Origin: Bacteroidales bacterium
Lineage (GTDB): Bacteria; Bacteroidota; Bacteroidia; Bacteroidales; NBLH01
Length of the DNA: 62,173 bases
Assembly: GCA_016937695.1 (NCBI GenBank)
Contig: JAFGWC010000156.1
Coordinates: forward strand, 1-62,173
Reading direction: 5' to 3'
Every line of letters starts with the position of its first letter. Position 1 is the first letter of the stretch. Below the pieces are notes generated by a model. The model was given only the letters and a program-made list of their open reading frames with translations. It did not search any database and was not told where the DNA came from. A program made the position numbers and the translations under genes. Shown here piece after piece: positions 28,512-46,034 of this stretch.

Positions 28512-30221
28512 TTACCAATCTTTTGTGTATTTTCTTTTTCTTAAAAAATAAGCAATTAAACCAAAAAATATAATAGCAAAAATTGGAAGTATTGTATTCA
28601 GCGATTTCCAGAATAATTTTTCGTGTACTAGTTTATCTTTATTCAATAATCTTAATTTAATTTCTCTAAGTCTAATGCTCATAAGTCCTTCATCATCACA
28701 TAAATAGTTAATTGAATTTAGAATAAACTCTTTATTTCCATTAAATGTTTTTTTTGTGTGCAAATCGAAACCAATTGGGTAAATTTCACCTTTTGCAGAA
28801 ATATTATTTTTAAGAATATCGCCACTTGAAACAATTATCATTTTAGTATTGCTGCTTTGTTTTAAAAATGTATCAGGATTTACTGATATTCCATCAATAG
28901 TTCTGTTTTTAAAATTTGAATCAAATTTACCTTCCAAAAGAACAGCAATTGCAATGTTTTTTTGTGTAAATCCTGATTCATCTATTTGATTTTGAACGTT
29001 TTCGATACTAACCATGGTTGGCGAGTAATCAAACTTTGATTTTACAGAGCTGTGTAATAAAACGGTTTTTTTTACATAATCCGAATTACCAACAGTATCG
29101 ATTGATGCCGGAAATTCTAGTCTGATTATGCTTAGGTATTTATTAATTTCGTGATTGTTATCGGATAAAATTACAGGAAAATAAGTCCATGGAAACAAAT
29201 CTATTCTAGTTTGTCCGGAATTGTCTTGTCTTGTCATCCCAATTGCAGAACATTGCAAATCCTGAACTAATCCTTGATTTATTCTAACACCATATCTAAA
29301 GAGCTGATCTTCAAGATTTAAGTTTAAAGGCATCGCAACATTAACCGGAGTCGATTTCAAACTATCTAAAATAATGTTTGCACCATCAATAAGCCACAAA
29401 ACTTTACCGCCTTTCATAATATATTGGTCAATAACTAGCTTGTCTTGTTCCGTAAACTCTTTAATTGGCTGAGCAATAATTATTGCAGAAAATGCATCAA
29501 GAATTCCAATTGTTCCATTAATAAATCCTCTTTTTACGTCGTAATACTCTGAAAGAGTGTTGCTTATGTCCATTACACTATATTCATCAAGTTCGCCGTG
29601 GCCTTCTATAAAAGCAATTTCTTGTTTTTTATCATTACTAAGCTTTTTTATAGCGTTTGTAAATTCATATTCAAGAGATTGTATCGAATTATTAATATTT
29701 TCTTCACTGTCGGCTCGATATCTTGGATCGTTTTTCAATAAGCTAATACCAAGCTCTTTACCTTTGTAAACTACAATAGCGCCGGGAAAAATCATTTTTT
29801 GCATCGATTTTCCTTCGTCTGTTGTTTCATGAGATTCGATAGGGACAATGCCTTTATCGAAAAGCTGTTTGTATAAACCGAATCTCGCTTTTTTATCTGG
29901 GTTTTCGCTAGGATTAATAAACTGATAATCAATGTTTTTATTTGCATATATCTGAAATTCTTCTAATAAATCGTTAATTGCTCGACGCATTTTTTTAAAA
30001 GAAATAGGAAGATCATCTCCTTCGAGATAAATTTTTATGTAAACTTCATTATTTAGATTTGATAAAAATTCTTTAGAATGATTTGATAATGAGTATTTTC
30101 GCTCCGAAGTAAGGTCTATTCTGTAAAGGAAAAAAGAGCTTATGTAATTTACTAAAATTATTATTATAAAAACAAATAATAAATTTGTTAAACTTTGCTT
30201 TTTAAGATTTTTTTTACTCAT
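28512..30221 (-). CDS. gldG: gliding-associated ABC transport auxiliary protein GldG
   Basis: 569 residues. It has an N-terminal membrane helix (NLLFVFIIIILVNYISSFFLY), then LTSERKYSLS, the typical GldG opening. A large periplasmic ABC_transp_aux domain follows (SNDKKQEIAFIEGHGELDEY; GGKVLWLIDGANIILDSL), and a final helix precedes a basic tail. GldG works with GldF and the ATPase GldA. The complex is needed for gliding in some Flavobacteriia, yet many non-gliding Bacteroidota keep it. gldF lies 54 bases upstream. No gldA is present in the window. Confidence 0.92.
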   Translation of the reverse strand: MSKKNLKKQSLTNLLFVFIIIILVNYISSFFLYRIDLTSERKYSLSNHSKEFLSNLNNEVYIKIYLEGDDLPISFKKMRRAINDLLEEFQIYANKNIDYQFINPSENPDKKARFGLYKQLFDKGIVPIESHETTDEGKSMQKMIFPGAIVVYKGKELGISLLKNDPRYRADSEENINNSIQSLEYEFTNAIKKLSNDKKQEIAFIEGHGELDEYSVMDISNTLSEYYDVKRGFINGTIGILDAFSAIIIAQPIKEFTEQDKLVIDQYIMKGGKVLWLIDGANIILDSLKSTPVNVAMPLNLNLEDQLFRYGVRINQGLVQDLQCSAIGMTRQDNSGQTRIDLFPWTYFPVILSDNNHEINKYLSIIRLEFPASIDTVGNSDYVKKTVLLHSSVKSKFDYSPTMVSIENVQNQIDESGFTQKNIAIAVLLEGKFDSNFKNRTIDGISVNPDTFLKQSSNTKMIIVSSGDILKNNISAKGEIYPIGFDLHTKKTFNGNKEFILNSINYLCDDEGLMSIRLREIKLRLLNKDKLVHEKLFWKSLNTILPIFAIIFFGLIAYFLRKRKYTKDW

Positions 30222-30275
30222 GGTTGAGTTTATTTTAAATAGTTTATTGTAGCTAAAAAAGAGTGTTTTATTATT

Positions 30276-31010
30276 TCACCTCCATTTTCTACTTTCTAAA
30301 ACAGTTTTTGTAGAATATAGAAAAAGAAAAATCACAGAAATAAAGTAAATCAAATCTCTAAAATCAATAACACCTCTGCTCATAGATTTATAATGTTCGT
30401 TAATTCCCAAATTTATAACTATATCAGAAATTATTTCGAAAAAAGGAATTGAGCTGATTGATTCAAAACCAATGTATAAAAAGAATGATAAAATCATGGC
30501 AATTAAAAATGCAATTATCTGATTTTCAGTTATTGATGAAGCAAAAATGCCGATAGAAACATAAATTGCCGAAAGAAAAAATAAGCCGAAATAAGATCCC
30601 CATGTTCCGCCTAAATCAACATTTCCTATCGGATTTGCTAAAAGATATATTGATAAAAAATATATTAAAGTTGGTAATAATGAAAACAGAACTAATAATA
30701 GTCCTGCAAAATATTTTGCAAGAATTATTTGAATATCTGTAAATGGTTTTGTTAATAAAAATTCAATTGTTCCGCTTTTTTTTTCATCTGCAAATAATCG
30801 CATTGTTATTGCAGGAACTAAAAAAAGAAAAACCCAAGGCGATAAAATAAATAAAGAATCCAGACTTGCGTATGAATTTTCAATAATATTGAACTGACCC
30901 GGGAAAAACCATAAAAATATGCCATTTGCCAATAAAAAAACGATTATAACGATATATCCGATTAATGAACTAAAAAATCCATTTAATTCTTTTTTTAATA
31001 AATTTAGCAT
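30276..31010 (-). CDS. gldF: gliding-associated ABC transporter permease GldF
   Basis: 244 residues with six hydrophobic segments. It opens with LLKKELNGFFSSLIGYIVII and has the ABC-2 permease block PAITMRLFADEKKSGTIEFLLTKP (positions about 64-88), the hallmark of GldF. It forms the inner-membrane part of the GldAFG transporter and is the first gene of the gldF-gldG-DUF4340 unit. The ATPase must come from elsewhere in the genome. Confidence 0.92.
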   Translation of the reverse strand: MLNLLKKELNGFFSSLIGYIVIIVFLLANGIFLWFFPGQFNIIENSYASLDSLFILSPWVFLFLVPAITMRLFADEKKSGTIEFLLTKPFTDIQIILAKYFAGLLLVLFSLLPTLIYFLSIYLLANPIGNVDLGGTWGSYFGLFFLSAIYVSIGIFASSITENQIIAFLIAMILSFFLYIGFESISSIPFFEIISDIVINLGINEHYKSMSRGVIDFRDLIYFISVIFLFLYSTKTVLESRKWR

Positions 31011-33231: not shown

Positions 33232-34944
33232 CTAATAACTAATTTCGTCAATTATTTGTTTTGTTACATTTAAAAATTCTACTTCTGCCAGTTTGATTGT
33301 TACCGGATTTTTTAAATTCCATTTTGCAATTACTTTTTCAATAAAATTTTCCCTAACAACAATTAATAAATGATTTTTGTTAAATTTTAATAGCTCGTCT
33401 AAGCTTTTTGCCCAGCCTTTCTCCGAAAGTTCAAAATTCCCTACTTCATCTATTATAAGAAGCTGATTTTCTATGTTATTATCAGGACTTAAACTTTCAA
33501 CACCAAGTTCAATAGCTTTTGGAAATAGGCAAAAAGCACCTATTTTTTGATGATTACCAATGATGTTCTTTCTTAAAAACGGTTCCGATTTATTGGTATT
33601 GATATCTACCAAATCGTAACCCACCCGTTTGTGGTTCTCAATAATTTTTTGCGAATAAATTCCACCGATTTTTATATTTTTTACTTTCAGATTTTCAATT
33701 AAGTTCTTAACAAAAGTTGTTTTACCACTATCAATTTTACCTGTAATCAGTATTGTTTTTTGAACAAAGTTTTGTTCTTTTTTTAGTTCTAAAAATCGGT
33801 GTTCTGAGTAGGCAATTAATTGAGAAACTACCGAAACCGGATTTTTGATAATTGTTTTAAAATCTGGAATATTGGCAATAACTAAAGGTAAACTTTCTAC
33901 TGAAAGTTCCAATGCCAAAGGTAATTGCTTGAATCGTGTTTTATTAAAAAAATTTCTGATTTTGGGGTTATATAATTCTGTTCCCAAAACCGAAAATCCT
34001 AAGATTAAAACTGTTGCTCTAAAATTCATTTCCAGTCCGATTAAAACAGCATCTAATATTGGTTTTGATTGTAATTTTGTGAACACAAATGCTGTAAGCA
34101 TAGTAATTACAACAAAATAAATCCAAAACCTAGGCTTTGATAATTGGCGTAATGCACGTTTATACCTAAAAATCCAAATAGATACAATAACAAATACTGA
34201 AATGCTCCAAATTTTCCAATCAGACAAGCTTATTAGAATTATTGATGTTATAATAAATAAAATGTTGGATATAAGCCAAAGTATTGAATAGTTAAAACCG
34301 TTTTTTGAATTCGATGAGTTTAAAAAACGTTGATTGTTATACTGCTGTGGCTTGTATTCAAGCGGTTGCAAAATAAGTTTTTTACCGGTTTTTATTCCGA
34401 TTATGGCTGAAATTAGGCCTATTAAAACATAACCCGAAAACAAAATTAAAATCGGTATCCAAAGTGTATTAAGTTGTATATTAAGCTGTTTTTCTGTAAA
34501 TTTCATTAAGCTTTTATACAATTCAACAATATTAAATCCATAAAAAATTAAATAATTAATAATTTTCTGAATAAAACTCCAAGAAACGGCTAAAATAGAA
34601 CCAATGATAAAGCCCAGATAATTCTTGCCCAATGTTTTTACAGAAATTTCAAGCAATAGGCTTTCTGTAAAAATGGCAATCATAGGTCCAAAAATCACTG
34701 CACTTGGCGACATAGTTTTCATTAAAGCACAAATTAAACCTGCTCGCCAAAAAATCCCTTTGTCTTTCCAAACATGACTAGCCGAAATTAAAATAATTAC
34801 ACCTATTGAAGTTAGTATACTTCCGGAAAAAGGAACTTTTAAATTATGCAAAAAACTTCCGAGTACAATTTCAGAAGAAGCCCAAACTGTTCCTATTATT
34901 GCTGATTTTAACCAAGTTTCGCTTAATTCGGTTTTATTACTCAT
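33232..34944 (-). CDS. fused S-like/T-like membrane protein with THEP1-type P-loop NTPase
   Basis: 570 residues from the ATG at 34944. Residues about 1-200 form six hydrophobic segments (WLKSAIIGTVWASSEIVLGS; FSGSILTSIGVIILI; AVIFGPMIAIFTESLLLEI), like an ECF-type S-component. Residues about 225-375 resemble a CbiQ-type T-component (SVLGTELYNPKIRNFF, then LPLALELSVESLPL). Residues about 395-570 are a THEP1/NTPase_1-type nucleoside-triphosphatase: Walker A ITGKIDSGKTTF, then KIGGIYSQKI, Walker B LLIIDEVGNFELS and a late LIVVRENF. This order in one chain differs from ECF transporters, which use ABC ATPases. The start overlaps the DUF364 stop by eight bases. Probably a metal or cofactor uptake device; substrate unknown. 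Confidence 0.7.
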   Translation of the reverse strand: MSNKTELSETWLKSAIIGTVWASSEIVLGSFLHNLKVPFSGSILTSIGVIILISASHVWKDKGIFWRAGLICALMKTMSPSAVIFGPMIAIFTESLLLEISVKTLGKNYLGFIIGSILAVSWSFIQKIINYLIFYGFNIVELYKSLMKFTEKQLNIQLNTLWIPILILFSGYVLIGLISAIIGIKTGKKLILQPLEYKPQQYNNQRFLNSSNSKNGFNYSILWLISNILFIITSIILISLSDWKIWSISVFVIVSIWIFRYKRALRQLSKPRFWIYFVVITMLTAFVFTKLQSKPILDAVLIGLEMNFRATVLILGFSVLGTELYNPKIRNFFNKTRFKQLPLALELSVESLPLVIANIPDFKTIIKNPVSVVSQLIAYSEHRFLELKKEQNFVQKTILITGKIDSGKTTFVKNLIENLKVKNIKIGGIYSQKIIENHKRVGYDLVDINTNKSEPFLRKNIIGNHQKIGAFCLFPKAIELGVESLSPDNNIENQLLIIDEVGNFELSEKGWAKSLDELLKFNKNHLLIVVRENFIEKVIAKWNLKNPVTIKLAEVEFLNVTKQIIDEISY

Positions 34945-35746
34945 ATACGATACATATTTTTTCGGCACAATATTTATACAAATGATAACCTGCGCCGGCT
35001 TGACTAACAACTTTTAACATCAATTCCGGATTTGTTGCTTTTACAGCACCAATTATATTTACATTATTAGAAAATAAAACATCAGGAATAAAGCTGCTTG
35101 ATGGACCAGTTACAATTATTTGTGTTTTAGGTTTTATTGATTTTAATAAATTTTCAAAAGTATTATTTACCAGCGTGAGTCCGGTAATAATTACAATATC
35201 TGAAATTGGTAAAACTGTTTTATAATCTTTAGCAGGAACAAAAAACTTTTTGTCGTCTCCAATGAGTGCGTTCTCATTAAATTCCAACACAAACAATTTG
35301 TTGTCGGTTTTAGAAATTCTATCTATATACGATTGAAATGCACCTACCATGGTAATTGTTTTTCTTGAATGTAAGTCTATTAAATCTATCGGATCGCTAT
35401 TTTCTAAGATTTTATAATCTGAATTTTCTAAAAGTTTTGAAGAAATGGCATTTAGAACGGCAATTTTCAGGCTTTGAATAATGGAATTTTTATTTGGAAA
35501 CTCGATTAATTCCAAAACACTTTTCCCTGTGATATTCAATGGACTAAAATCACCAAAATCACGATTGGATTTTTTGCAATGTACATCGGATTCTTCAGGC
35601 ATAGCTACGCTTGAAACACCAACTGTTCCGTCTGAAAGTTGTATGGCTGTCATAAAAAGTCCAATTCTGACATCAGAAATGGATAAGGTTTCAATGTAGT
35701 CTTTATATTTGTTTTTCAACAAATTAATAGTCTCTTGTAAAATCAT
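34937..35746 (-). CDS. DUF4213/DUF364 putative metal-chelation protein
   Basis: 269 residues. The N-terminal part (about 1-95) matches DUF4213 (VRIGLFMTAIQLSDGTVGVSSVAMPE). The rest matches DUF364 with a Rossmann-like start (KTITMVGAFQSYIDRI) and the segments FVLEFNENALIGDDKKFFVPAKDY, DIVIITGLTLVNNTFENLL and ATNPELMLKVVSQAGAGYHLYKYC. These proteins are described as heavy-metal-chelation domains and are often found beside metal transporters. No signal peptide, so it acts in the cytoplasm. It is the first gene of a coupled pair with the fused membrane NTPase. Confidence 0.85.
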   Translation of the reverse strand: MILQETINLLKNKYKDYIETLSISDVRIGLFMTAIQLSDGTVGVSSVAMPEESDVHCKKSNRDFGDFSPLNITGKSVLELIEFPNKNSIIQSLKIAVLNAISSKLLENSDYKILENSDPIDLIDLHSRKTITMVGAFQSYIDRISKTDNKLFVLEFNENALIGDDKKFFVPAKDYKTVLPISDIVIITGLTLVNNTFENLLKSIKPKTQIIVTGPSSSFIPDVLFSNNVNIIGAVKATNPELMLKVVSQAGAGYHLYKYCAEKICIVYE

Positions 35747-42552: not shown

Positions 42553-44754
42553 ATGAAAACATTAATTACTTTAGTGTTTTACCTCATTTTCTCACAATTT
42601 TCTATTGCCCAAAATGGATTTGTTATCGATCACAGACATGCAGATTTAGCTCAAATTCCTGAATCATATATAAACCTGGCAAAGCAAAATTTGAAAATAA
42701 GGTATTTCAGGCGATCACACGGAAGCCAAATTGATATTGGCGGAATGGCTGCATTAAGAAGATTTTCATCAGATTACAATACTTTGTACTCATACAATAG
42801 TACTGGCGCAAATGGCGAATTATTTTTGGATGTAGAATGGCATAGTTTAGATATAGAAAATAGCACTTGGGTTCAAATTACCAGAGATTACCTTAATAAT
42901 GCTGCAAATTCACAAGTTAATGTTGTTATGTGGGCTTGGAGTAGCGGCTTTTTTGATTGTGATGTTGACCAATACTTAAGCGATATGGAAATGCTTATTG
43001 GAGAATATGGCCCAGTCGGAAGTATGATAACATCAGGCCAAAGAACTGTGCCTGTTACGTTTGTTTTTCAAACAGCTTGCGGGCAAAGTTCCACTGATCG
43101 GAATCAACTGGTTTATGAAGGTAACAAACAAATAAGACAATTTTGTGTTGATAATAATAGAATTTTATTTGACTTTAACGATATTGAATGCTATAATCCC
43201 GATAACCAATATTTTGGAGATGGGAATCCAGATGGTTCTTACACAAATGAAAGACTACTAAATGATGATTTATCATATAATGTTGCTAGTGGAAGAGGTA
43301 ATTGGGGAATAGAATGGAATAATGCAAACCCAACAAGTGAATTAAAGCTTCTTTCTGCTGATAATATTTGTACTGAATGTGCTCATTCTATGGGTGAGGA
43401 TGAAGGTGAAATTAAGGACAACTCTCGTTTACACTGTGTTTTAAAAGGCCGAGCTGCATGGTGGCTTTGGGCTAAACTTGCAGGTTGGGGAGTTGAAAAT
43501 GCATCTTCGCAAAGTTCTACTTCTGAAAGCTTAAGCGAAAATAATTTAAATGGTGCTGTAATTAATTTTTCTCTTTTTAATGAAACTTTTGCTGATAATA
43601 ATTTATCTGCTGTTAATTTCATTTTAAACAACGCACCAAACGGAACTGCAATTGAATCAATTGATTACATAAATTCTACACACGCTGATATAAATCTCAG
43701 TTTTAATGGAACTGATTTTGATACAAATTATAATAATTTTTCAATTACAGTTTTAAATCAAGAACTTATTGGGAATAACAATTTACAAAGTAATTCAATT
43801 TCTATTGATGCCGTTGTCGAAGATAATCCTTCTGTAAATATTTCTTCTGCAACTCAACTTACTGAAAGCAATTTAGATAATGCAATCATCAATTTAAGTT
43901 TAAATTATGAAACTTTTGCTGATAATAATTTATCAACAAATAATTTTATTTTAAACAATATTCCAAACGGAACTGCAATTGAATCAATTGATTACATAAA
44001 TTCCACTCATGCAGATGTAAATCTCAGTTTTGACGGAACAGACTTTGATACTGATATTAATAATTTTTCAATTACAGTTTTAAATCAAGAACTTAACGGA
44101 AATAACAATTTACAAAGTAATTCAATTTCTATATTTGCTGAAGATGAAAACTCAGCTTCAGCAATTGCTATTCCAAACCAAGAATTATCTGAATCAAATT
44201 TAGAAAATTCAGAAATTGCAATAAACCTTACAAATGAAACATTTTCTTTAACCGGGCGTGGCGAAATTGAAAGCTTTGTTTTAAACAATGCACCGGCAGG
44301 TCTAAGTATTGAAACTATCAGTCAAATAAGCGATTCAGAAATTAATCTTCAGTTAAGCTTTTCGGGTCAGGATTTTGATAATGATATTGATGATTTTTCA
44401 ATTACAATTCTTTCAAATCAATTAACAGGAAATCAAGACTTAACAACAAATAACTTAAGTATTGAAGCCGATATTAACACTAAAATTATTGACGATTTTA
44501 ATAGAGAAGAAAAAAAAATCTCTTTATTTCCAAATCCAAATAATGGAATTTTTTATTTGAAATTTAATTCCAATTTTTACGGAAAAGTAACATTTGTAAT
44601 TTTAAATCAAAGCGGAACTAAAGTCTATGAAAATAATTTTAACGTAATAAAAGGCGAACAAACATTATCTCTTGATTTACAAAAGCTTAAAAAAGGAGTA
44701 TATTTAATTTATTCAGATATAATTAAAAAATCAAGAAAAATTATAATAAAATAA
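42553..44754 (+). CDS. SGNH-like secreted protein with three repeat domains and T9SS sorting
   Basis: 733 residues. Signal peptide ends SIAQ. Residues about 20-315 form the SGNH-like domain (FRRSHGSQIDIGG; VVMWAWSSGFFDCDVD; VFQTACGQ; DNSRLHCVLKGRAAWWLW), nearly identical to the next gene. Three beta-rich repeats of about 109 residues follow; the first two are nearly identical. Each runs SENNL/SESNL ... DFDTDINNFSITVL. A type A T9SS sorting domain (SLFPNPNNGIFYLKF ... KGVYLIYSD) ends the protein. It is probably exported to the cell surface, where the repeats act as a stalk. The next gene, 44 bases downstream, is a paralogue without the repeats. Confidence 0.75.
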   Translation: MKTLITLVFYLIFSQFSIAQNGFVIDHRHADLAQIPESYINLAKQNLKIRYFRRSHGSQIDIGGMAALRRFSSDYNTLYSYNSTGANGELFLDVEWHSLDIENSTWVQITRDYLNNAANSQVNVVMWAWSSGFFDCDVDQYLSDMEMLIGEYGPVGSMITSGQRTVPVTFVFQTACGQSSTDRNQLVYEGNKQIRQFCVDNNRILFDFNDIECYNPDNQYFGDGNPDGSYTNERLLNDDLSYNVASGRGNWGIEWNNANPTSELKLLSADNICTECAHSMGEDEGEIKDNSRLHCVLKGRAAWWLWAKLAGWGVENASSQSSTSESLSENNLNGAVINFSLFNETFADNNLSAVNFILNNAPNGTAIESIDYINSTHADINLSFNGTDFDTNYNNFSITVLNQELIGNNNLQSNSISIDAVVEDNPSVNISSATQLTESNLDNAIINLSLNYETFADNNLSTNNFILNNIPNGTAIESIDYINSTHADVNLSFDGTDFDTDINNFSITVLNQELNGNNNLQSNSISIFAEDENSASAIAIPNQELSESNLENSEIAINLTNETFSLTGRGEIESFVLNNAPAGLSIETISQISDSEINLQLSFSGQDFDNDIDDFSITILSNQLTGNQDLTTNNLSIEADINTKIIDDFNREEKKISLFPNPNNGIFYLKFNSNFYGKVTFVILNQSGTKVYENNFNVIKGEQTLSLDLQKLKKGVYLIYSDIIKKSRKIIIK
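43537..44517 (+). repeat. three 327-bp tandem repeat units inside the SGNH-like gene
   Basis: Units begin at 43537, 43864 and 44191, a constant 327 bp (109 codons). Units 1 and 2 are nearly identical over long stretches (for example AATTTTTCAATTACAG at the same offset). Unit 3 is more diverged and contains a small GRGEIES insertion. This points to recent duplication of unit 1/2. Confidence 0.85.
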
Positions 44755-44798: not shown

Positions 44799-46034
44799 AT
44801 GAGAACAATTTATCTATTAATCTTAGTTTTAATAAGCCAAACTATTTTTTCACAAAATGGTTTTATTGTTGATCACAGACACACAGATTTATCTCAAATT
44901 CCTGAATCATACATTACAGCAGCAAAACAAAACCTGAAAATAATGTATTTCAGGCGTTCTCACGGAAGCCATATAGATGTTGGCGGAATGTCTGCATTAA
45001 GAAGATACTCAACAGCTTACAATACTTTATACTCATACAATAGCACCGGCGCAAATGGCGAGTTATTTATGGATGCAGAATGGCATAGTTTAGATATAGA
45101 AAACAGCTCTTGGGTTCAAATAACTAAAGATTATCTTGATAATGCGGCAAATTCGCAAGTTAATGTTGTTATGTGGGCTTGGAGTAGTGGCTTTTTTGAT
45201 TGTGATGTTGATCAATATTTAAGCGATATGGAAACGCTTATTAATCAATATGGAACAAACAGCTGCAGAGCTGTTCCTGTAACTTTTATTTTTCAAACAG
45301 CATGTGGACAACGCTCTTTAGATAGGAATCAATTAGTTTATAATGGAAATAAAAAGATTAGAGATTATTGCAAAACATTTAACAAAATACTTTTTGATTT
45401 TAATGATTTAGAATGCTTCGATCCTGACGGAAACTATTATGGCGACGGAGTTACAAATAATGGTTCATACACAAGCCTCAGAAGATTAAATGATGATTTA
45501 GCCTATATTTCAGACTCAACTAATGTGTCTATTTATTCTGGATTTGGAAACTGGGGAATTGAATGGATGAACAGAAACCCAAATGCAGAGCTAACAAAAT
45601 TATCTGCCGATAATATTTGTCAAGTTTGCGAACATTCTATGGGATATCACGAAGAAGAAACTAAAGACAATTCACGTTTACACTGTGTTTTAAAAGGTCA
45701 GGCTGCTTGGTGGCTTTGGGCAAAACTTGCAGGTTGGGACGATGGCTATGTTGGAACATCAGATGTAAAAAACGACATAAAAAGCAATTTAAAAAATTAT
45801 CCAAATCCTTTTACTCAAAATACAACAATAGAATATTTTATTGAAGACAGCTCGCATGTAAAGCTTGAATTATATGATAGTCAAGGGAAAAAATTAAAAA
45901 CCTTAGTCGATGAAAATCAAACAAAAGGCAATCATACTATTCCTTTTGTTTTAAATAATAAAAACGGAATGTATTTTTATACTTTAAGCATAAACGGAAA
46001 ACAAATAGTAAATAAAATGCTTAAAATTAATTAA
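44799..46034 (+). CDS. SGNH-like secreted protein with T9SS sorting, paralogue without repeats
   Basis: 411 residues. Signal peptide ends IFSQ. The SGNH-like domain (to about 325) closely matches the preceding protein, with the same FRRSHGSHIDVGG, VVMWAWSSGFFDCDVD and DNSRLHCVLKGQAAWWLW. Instead of repeats it goes straight into a sorting domain (YPNPFTQNTTIEYFI ... KNGMYFYTLSINGKQ) that differs in sequence from its neighbour's. It also has a longer insert after the Asp/Gly-rich loop (YISDSTNVSIYSG). The pair is a tandem duplication with different C-terminal modules. A terminator follows. Confidence 0.75.
   Translation: MRTIYLLILVLISQTIFSQNGFIVDHRHTDLSQIPESYITAAKQNLKIMYFRRSHGSHIDVGGMSALRRYSTAYNTLYSYNSTGANGELFMDAEWHSLDIENSSWVQITKDYLDNAANSQVNVVMWAWSSGFFDCDVDQYLSDMETLINQYGTNSCRAVPVTFIFQTACGQRSLDRNQLVYNGNKKIRDYCKTFNKILFDFNDLECFDPDGNYYGDGVTNNGSYTSLRRLNDDLAYISDSTNVSIYSGFGNWGIEWMNRNPNAELTKLSADNICQVCEHSMGYHEEETKDNSRLHCVLKGQAAWWLWAKLAGWDDGYVGTSDVKNDIKSNLKNYPNPFTQNTTIEYFIEDSSHVKLELYDSQGKKLKTLVDENQTKGNHTIPFVLNNKNGMYFYTLSINGKQIVNKMLKIN

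Follow-up and report, generated by a model that had tools for sequence, protein, structure and literature searches.

A bacterial transporter family with ECF-like membrane domains and a THEP1-type NTPase: a candidate importer of the molybdenum cofactor

The window, that is the whole 62,173-nucleotide stretch of DNA analysed here, carries a gene for a DUF4213/DUF364 protein that is translationally coupled to a gene for a single-chain fusion of an S-like membrane domain, a T-like membrane domain and a THEP1-type NTPase (Table 1). The fusion belongs to an undescribed bacterial transporter family that is composed of these three parts. We are confident that the role of this family lies in the supply of molybdenum or of the molybdenum cofactor (Moco), and we propose that it probably imports the cofactor itself, either as Mo-MPT, the pterin with its metal already loaded, or in a closely related form. 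Judged from sequence, Moco import is the most likely reading of three lines of data: the Moco riboswitches that precede relatives of the fusion, the molybdoenzyme genes found next to them and the biosynthesis genes that are missing from their genomes.

Table 1. Features of the gene pair, in window coordinates
Feature	Position	Strand	Basis or remark
DUF4213/DUF364 protein, 269 aa, first gene of the pair	34937..35746	(-)	PF04016, PF13938, 3npg
DUF4213 domain, residues 13-102	35441..35710	(-)	enolase-N-like in solved relatives
DUF364 domain, residues 118-264	34955..35395	(-)	Rossmann-like in solved relatives
S-T-NTPase single-chain fusion, 570 aa	33232..34944	(-)	ORF, translation, family alignment
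ECF S-component-like domain, residues 1-195	34360..34944	(-)	AF2 model vs 5edl; Pfam; invariants
CbiQ/EcfT-like T domain, about residues 225-391	33772..34272	(-)	hhalign; motif M-x2-R-A
THEP1/NTPase_1 domain, residues 396-570	33232..33759	(-)	PF03266; 1ye8 fold match
Walker A GKIDSGKT, residues 402-409	33718..33741	(-)	sequence
Walker B region DEVGNFEL, residues 499-506	33427..33450	(-)	sequence

That the two-gene arrangement is real is certain. Both open reading frames are present on the minus strand where a preliminary description of this DNA had placed a two-gene unit, and the eight-base overlap that it had noticed is there, as the ATG at 34944, with which the fusion starts, lies within the DUF364 gene, 8 bp short of its end. 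The automatic ORF call for the fusion opens upstream, at a TTG. The assignment of the first protein to DUF4213/DUF364 stands as well: in Pfam it matches PF04016 (E=2.2e-38, 131.6 bits against a gathering score of 23) and PF13938, the DUF4213 model (E=1.8e-11, 44.6 bits against a gathering score of 23.5), and phmmer matches it to the solved DUF364 protein 3NPG (E=7e-11). The genome, of 3.95 Mb, holds one DUF364 gene and one fusion gene. Downstream of the pair lies a YceG-family gene on the opposite strand, and upstream a gene whose product, from reading its sequence, is large, probably a secreted protease, and has a region of sorting type at its C-terminus; neither of the two flanking genes suggests the function of the pair. 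No TonB receptor gene adjoins the pair in the window, and a domain search found no ModA/WtpA-type binding-protein domain or ABC-component domain in either of its proteins.

The arrangement is not due to chance, as the fusion or one of its domains was matched in 30 other genomes of a 395-genome phylum sample and the DUF364-fusion pair occurs in five further genomes from a separate collection. The system or part of it is present in 31 genomes of the sample, the window genome included, and these together with the five make up the set of 36 system-bearing genomes to which we refer below. All five are Bacteroidota (L003, L004 and L005 at ~75% identity, L006 at 47% and L007 at 34%), so that the gene-order search across Bacteroidota proposed at the outset did yield further cases, and in L003, L004 and L005 the two genes again overlap by 8 bp. 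A ModE-type DNA-binding protein (TIGR00637 1e-22, under the cut-off of that model) and a TonB-dependent receptor precede the pair in L003 and L004, and a TonB receptor lies directly upstream of it in L005. The L005 fusion keeps S and T and carries a short unrelated tail instead of the NTPase domain.

The identity of residues 1-195 as an S component is well supported. Since the NTPase domain filled the match list when the full-length model was compared with the PDB, the S domain was folded alone (AF2, six sequences, pLDDT 63). The model shows seven helices in residues 1-195, where about six N-terminal membrane segments had been counted before, and it matches the ECF S-component 5EDL with Z 14.9 (166 aligned, rmsd 3.0), in agreement with the earlier impression of an S-like part; 13 other ECF S entries, RibU, PanT, BioY, ThiT and NikM among them, score Z 9-11. 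A pMMO subunit, which is an unrelated bundle, scored Z 12.9 against the same model, indicating that helical bundles can score high. The window sequence by itself gives no Pfam match for the membrane part. Among 32 S-like members, however, two Pfam families alone are matched more than once: six members match ABC_cobalt (PF09819), with 4e-4 as the best value, and five match Trep_Strep (PF09605), with 2e-4 as the best. We take both to be ECF S-component families. Residues E25, G29, P38, G41 and G136 are invariant in the S family and L32 and H33 nearly so. The S profile had no match among the sequences of solved structures, and a PF09605 search of the phylum gave a single weak match, hence no usable set for comparison with the S profile.

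For the T domain, it is profile comparison alone that supports a relation to CbiQ/EcfT. In a comparison set of 29 polytopic membrane families from the fetched loci, hhalign placed one CbiQ family first against the T-family profile (91.6%, P 8e-7), followed by a second CbiQ family at 2.4%, with all others, including one divergent CbiQ set, at 1.1% or below; against pooled CbiQ the value was 79.6%. The same profile retrieved unrelated chains only from the sequences of solved structures. The middle part of the chain had been called CbiQ-like from the start, and so had the last part been called a non-ABC P-loop domain of THEP1 type. The latter matches PF03266 at residues 398-542 (E=8e-26, 91.3 bits against a gathering score of 23.9) and its model matches THEP1 1YE8 with Z 16.9 over 165 residues. 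The Walker A residues G11, G16 and K17 and the Walker B-region residues D108, E109 and E114 (A4 numbering) are invariant in 25 family members. All four motifs quoted in the preliminary description, SVLGTELYNPKIRNFF, LPLALELSVESLPL, ITGKIDSGKTTF and LLIIDEVGNFELS, are found in the fusion translation, and neither of the outcomes that it had named as speaking against it, no ECF S or T fold and no second genome with the DUF364-fusion pair, was encountered.

While the single-chain fusion was recognized early, it is just one of several layouts in the family, and this as well as the TonB receptor partner had been missed. Eight operons are split (L037-L044), with separate S, T and TonB receptor genes; in five of them (L037, L038, L040, L041 and L042) an NTPase gene follows the receptor, and in L039, L043 and L044 no NTPase gene adjoins. 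Elsewhere S and T are fused and the NTPase gene is separate (e.g. L053, L055, L056), the NTPase precedes S on one chain (L045-L047, L020, L022), or the order is S-T-NTPase as in the window, L003, L004 and L006-L009. In the S-domain tree the layouts group cleanly: the S-T-fused type forms one clade, the NTPase-S type another, and the S-T-NTPase type of the window one clade of eight (99/98). As the NTPase is fused to the membrane domains in both orders, a Rosetta-stone argument suggests that they act together.

Whether this joint action amounts to powering transport is a matter on which we see about even chances. The S-T-receptor operons showed no gene for an ABC ATPase, and the fusion chain carries NTPase_1 instead. 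Against a family-wide role of the NTPase, none lies beside L039, L043 and L044, and L005 has S and T without it. Some S components reportedly function without A and T units. It is possible, at distinctly less than even chances, that S and T carry out the transport and that the THEP1 NTPase acts on the cofactor once it is imported, by modifying it, trapping it or passing it on, perhaps together with MobA, an arrangement that would be compatible with any substrate. The mobA gene directly behind the NTPase gene in L040 would suit such a role, as would the presence of thymidine kinases (Z 7.3) and MobB (4oyh, Z 6.1) among the distant P-loop relatives in the fold search. Speaking against it are the fusions in both orders and across clades that bind the NTPase to membrane domains, the invariant Walker residues, the operons in which no ABC ATPase gene is seen, and the likeness to MobB, which is merely of P-loop level and no higher than that to other P-loop proteins, so that a kinship of the NTPase with MobB was dropped. 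It is highly improbable that the system is an ordinary ECF transporter relying on a canonical ABC (EcfA) module borrowed from elsewhere in the genome. The S fold, the T relation and the operons with no adjoining NTPase gene would agree with borrowing, and yet a genome search found no CbiQ/EcfT match in the window genome, and the family carries its own T and, mostly, its own NTPase.

A Moco riboswitch (RF01055) precedes all eight split operons, about 40-190 nt ahead of the S gene or, where a small CMD gene comes first, ahead of that gene. Ten RF01055 matches exceed the gathering score across the 36 system-bearing genomes; eight are those at the split operons and the remaining two precede operons with moaA, moaC, moeA and mobA, that is, with genes of Moco biosynthesis. 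None was found at the window locus or at L003-L007, nor did a permissive scan of the DNA immediately ahead of the window pair reveal one. Moco riboswitches control both supply and use of the cofactor (biosynthesis, molybdate uptake, enzymes), and the genes are repressed when Moco is plentiful (PMC2408646), because of which an exporter is not favoured. The preliminary description had proposed an importer or exporter of a metal or metal cofactor; on this published regulation we set the exporter aside, while import is kept. A metal or metal cofactor as substrate is supported too, but the molybdenum cofactor as its class, to which riboswitches, neighbours and missing genes all point, had escaped notice.

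The surroundings of the system are rich in molybdoenzymes. A full-size molybdo-oxidoreductase (PF00384) is encoded within 8 kb of it in 14 of 31 genomes, compared to 0.26 expected from random positions. Full-size oxidoreductases alone were counted here, and the finding that 34 of the 36 genomes have a PF00384 match was set aside because NuoG-type proteins match PF00384 too. The neighbours comprise NapA-like, arsenate-reductase-like, DMSO-reductase-II-like and PhsA-like subunits, with xanthine-dehydrogenase-type genes near the system in L048 and L044; in addition, MobA adjoins the fusion in L049 and a MOSC-domain gene follows the NTPase in L054. Neighbouring molybdoenzymes of L039 and L056 bear Tat-type SRRxFL signals, and as proteins exported by Tat are loaded with their cofactor in the cytosol before export, it is there that the cofactor would be needed. 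For the TonB receptors, the highest-scoring models are those of B12- and heme-type receptors, with scores under the cut-offs of those models; a TonB receptor suits a large and scarce ligand better than molybdate.

The search for MoaA used an NCBIfam model; for MoaC, MoeA, MobA and MogA, sequences of Bacteroidota relatives were joined into one concatenated query. MoaE was dropped as a marker because the E. coli query missed even moaA-positive genomes. Neither MoaA over the cut-off nor MoaC was found in 22 of the 36 genomes, which are 97-100% complete and one of which (G124) is a single 3.7-Mb contig. This count covers the system-bearing genomes only, and it leaves out G014, which has no MoaC and a sub-threshold MoaA match. 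Since the MoaC of G119 was found at only 36% identity, distant copies should have been detected. MobA is kept in 13 of these 22 genomes, in 10 of them alongside a full-size molybdo-oxidoreductase, and MoeA in three (G006, G051 and G353). ModA is over the cut-off in 2 and WtpA in 8 of the 36, and all 22 genomes negative for MoaA and MoaC are among those that have neither. Having molybdoenzymes and MobA in the absence of the pterin-forming and metal-inserting steps would imply a need for a pre-formed, metal-loaded cofactor.

The remaining two alternatives concern the substrate. Import of molybdate or tungstate, either free or bound in a metallophore complex, with the DUF364 protein handling the metal, is in our judgement unlikely, even though several observations agree with it. 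ModA and WtpA over the cut-off are both lacking in 28 of the 36 genomes, ModA is over the cut-off in 140 of the 395 phylum genomes as opposed to 1 of the 31 with the system (numbers that are uncorrected for kinship), and the ModE-type protein stands before the receptor gene in L003 and L004. Furthermore, modABC is also found behind Moco riboswitches in other bacteria (PMC2408646), and DUF364 genes adjoin molybdate and tungstate transporters (PMC2954201). However, as MoaA and MoaC are absent from 22 of the 36 genomes and MoeA from 19 of those 22, the metal alone cannot give Moco by the known route, and receptors of B12/heme-like type are at odds with a small oxyanion, for which a TonB receptor is unexpected. 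Quite improbable is import of a metal-free precursor, cPMP or molybdopterin. cPMP is a stable intermediate (PMC9370521) and the three genomes that keep MoeA would fit this route, but with 19 of the 22 having no MoeA and all 22 neither ModA nor WtpA, most of them would have no use for a metal-free pterin.

We therefore return to the import of metal-loaded Moco, for which we propose the following route. Moco would cross the outer membrane through the TonB receptor and be bound by the S domain. The T domain would couple to the NTPase, which, in the role that ABC ATPases have in ordinary ECF transporters, would drive release into the cytosol. Where the guanine-dinucleotide form is used, GMP would next be added by MobA, and the DUF4213/DUF364 protein of the subfamily to which the window belongs may receive or process the pterin or the metal. 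A structural paper placed the active-site ligand of DUF364 among flavin- or pterin-like molecules, and genome context ties its relatives to the transport of molybdate, tungstate and vanadium (PMC2954201), so that the protein would fit a cofactor- or metal-handling step after import. Given the description of free Moco as very unstable (PMC9370521), the donor would have to be protected or protein-bound. Taken as a whole, a new importer class in which ECF-like S and T, a THEP1 NTPase and a TonB receptor together import intact Moco, some bacteria being Moco auxotrophs, is a tentative proposal to which we give somewhat less than even chances.

For the window's own copy, metal-loaded Moco as the substrate falls just short of an even chance. 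Its genome has MoaA, MoaC, MoeA, MogA, MobA, MoaE, ModA and WtpA, the ModA and WtpA genes lying away from the pair, and, on other contigs, two genes for molybdo-oxidoreductases. Among the five further DUF364-type genomes, WtpA is present in 5/5, MoaC in 5/5 and MoaA over the cut-off in three. As the window genome can make Moco and no riboswitch is present at the locus, salvage is less certain for the DUF364-type copy. In this subclade the system may salvage the cofactor to spare synthesis, or it may have shifted to a metal or another pterin. The nearest members of the subclade that have no DUF364, G014 and G093, have neither MoaC nor MoeA; G014 has MobA and a molybdo-oxidoreductase beside the fusion, and G093 a xanthine-dehydrogenase-type gene. 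These features lead us tentatively to favour a shared cofactor substrate.

Peng et al. (2018) described about 300 bacteria, 292 without and 13 with nitrogenase, that have Moco enzymes and no complete Moco pathway ("orphan molybdoenzyme"); most of these have no known Mo transporter, and incomplete genomes were named as a possible cause for some (PMC6147048). If our proposal is true, a Moco importer explains genomes that possess molybdoenzymes and yet are unable to make Moco, and Moco is a shared good in microbial communities, in which auxotrophs use cofactor released by others. THEP1 NTPases and DUF364 proteins would also gain a first, testable role, and it would be evident that membrane parts of ECF type can work with a non-ABC NTPase. 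C. elegans takes Moco from bacteria, with membrane passage described as unknown (PMC9793310), and a transporter would thus be at hand for a cofactor whose passage is undescribed even there. A targeted search of open-licence literature, which is weak evidence, found no description of a bacterial importer of Moco or molybdopterin; a 2025 paper suggested, and no more than suggested, certain T11SS outer-membrane proteins for uptake of cobalamin or molybdopterin.

Compared with known systems, the first protein of the pair shares the two-domain family of the solved DUF4213/DUF364 proteins (3L5O, 3NPG), being above the cut-off for both domains, and known members have been linked to Mo/W transport and pterin-like ligands. 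The neighbours published for DUF364 are ABC transporters, whereas in the window DUF364 is translationally coupled to the S-T-NTPase fusion. With ModABC, WtpABC and TupABC, some of which are under the same riboswitch class in other bacteria, the family would have molybdenum or tungsten supply in common; these are ABC oxyanion importers with a periplasmic binding protein, to which we found no sequence relation. The NTPase shares sequence family, fold and Walker motifs with THEP1/NTPCR (PF03266; 1YE8, 2I3B), but those of solved structure are free-standing soluble proteins on whose role there is no agreement, while here the domain is fused or operon-linked to membrane transport domains. With the ECF transporters (YkoE 5EDL, RibU, BioY, PanT; CbiQ/EcfT) the family shares the S-component fold, a T-type membrane protein and the logic of cofactor uptake under riboswitch control, and the TonB receptor of the relatives is as in B12 uptake. 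In place of their two ABC ATPases this family has NTPase_1/THEP1, and in the window, unlike in ECF transporters, S, T and NTPase are carried on one chain, in a molybdenum-cofactor context.

At L005, one of the loci of relatives, an intact DUF364 gene adjoins a natural copy of the predicted molybdenum cofactor (Moco) uptake protein that retains the ECF S-component-like (S) and CbiQ/EcfT-like (T) parts and lacks the THEP1-type NTPase domain (Table). An additional S-like protein, lacking T and NTPase, lies near nitrate-reductase-type clusters at four loci, and the copy of L043 forms a long branch in the S-domain tree. S-T or S-T-NTPase genes are further contained in two clusters of probable purine or pyrimidine catabolism. 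In the window itself, two similar secreted proteins are encoded side by side, their differing C-terminal regions resembling sorting domains, and a GldF/GldG-like gene pair was recognized by eye.

Table. Features of the window and of relatives' loci (each locus in its own coordinates)
Feature	Locus	Coordinates	Remark
S-T copy, NTPase domain absent	L005	2252-3532	natural
Second S-like protein	L043	18888-19469	
Second S-like protein	L039	2-436	
Second S-like protein	L044	2-352	
Second S-like protein	L088	16582-17274	
Catabolism-type cluster (probable)	L048	1722-9319	xanthine-dehydrogenase-type enzyme
Catabolism-type cluster (probable)	L051	9451-19999	MocA/MobA-like transferase
CMD gene	L040	12162-12491	
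CMD gene	L053	4237-4587	
CMD gene	L088	6322-6639	
CMD gene	L089	9786-10172	
CMD gene	L090	11091-11453	
ChrA-like membrane protein	L088	6636-7160	by eye
ChrA-like membrane protein	L089	10169-10693	by eye
ChrA-like membrane protein	L090	10570-11094	by eye
Tungsten-type aldehyde ferredoxin oxidoreductase cluster	L092	6234-15227	enzyme by eye
Tungsten-type aldehyde ferredoxin oxidoreductase cluster	L093	7953-17602	enzyme by eye
Two similar secreted proteins	window	42553-44754, 44799-46034	side by side
GldF/GldG-like gene pair	window	28512-31010	by eye

Moco-biosynthesis operons and some S-T-NTPase operons begin with a small carboxymuconolactone-decarboxylase-family (CMD) gene, which is immediately preceded by a Moco riboswitch (RF01055) at three of the five loci listed. 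In riboswitch-linked moa operons a gene for a membrane protein, ChrA-like as judged by eye, is flanked by CMD and moaA, and its product is a candidate molybdate carrier. The tungsten-type clusters of L092 and L093 also hold WtpABC, moeA, a short moaA, moaC and MOSC genes. This arrangement suggests that in these genomes moaA may serve tungsten enzymes.
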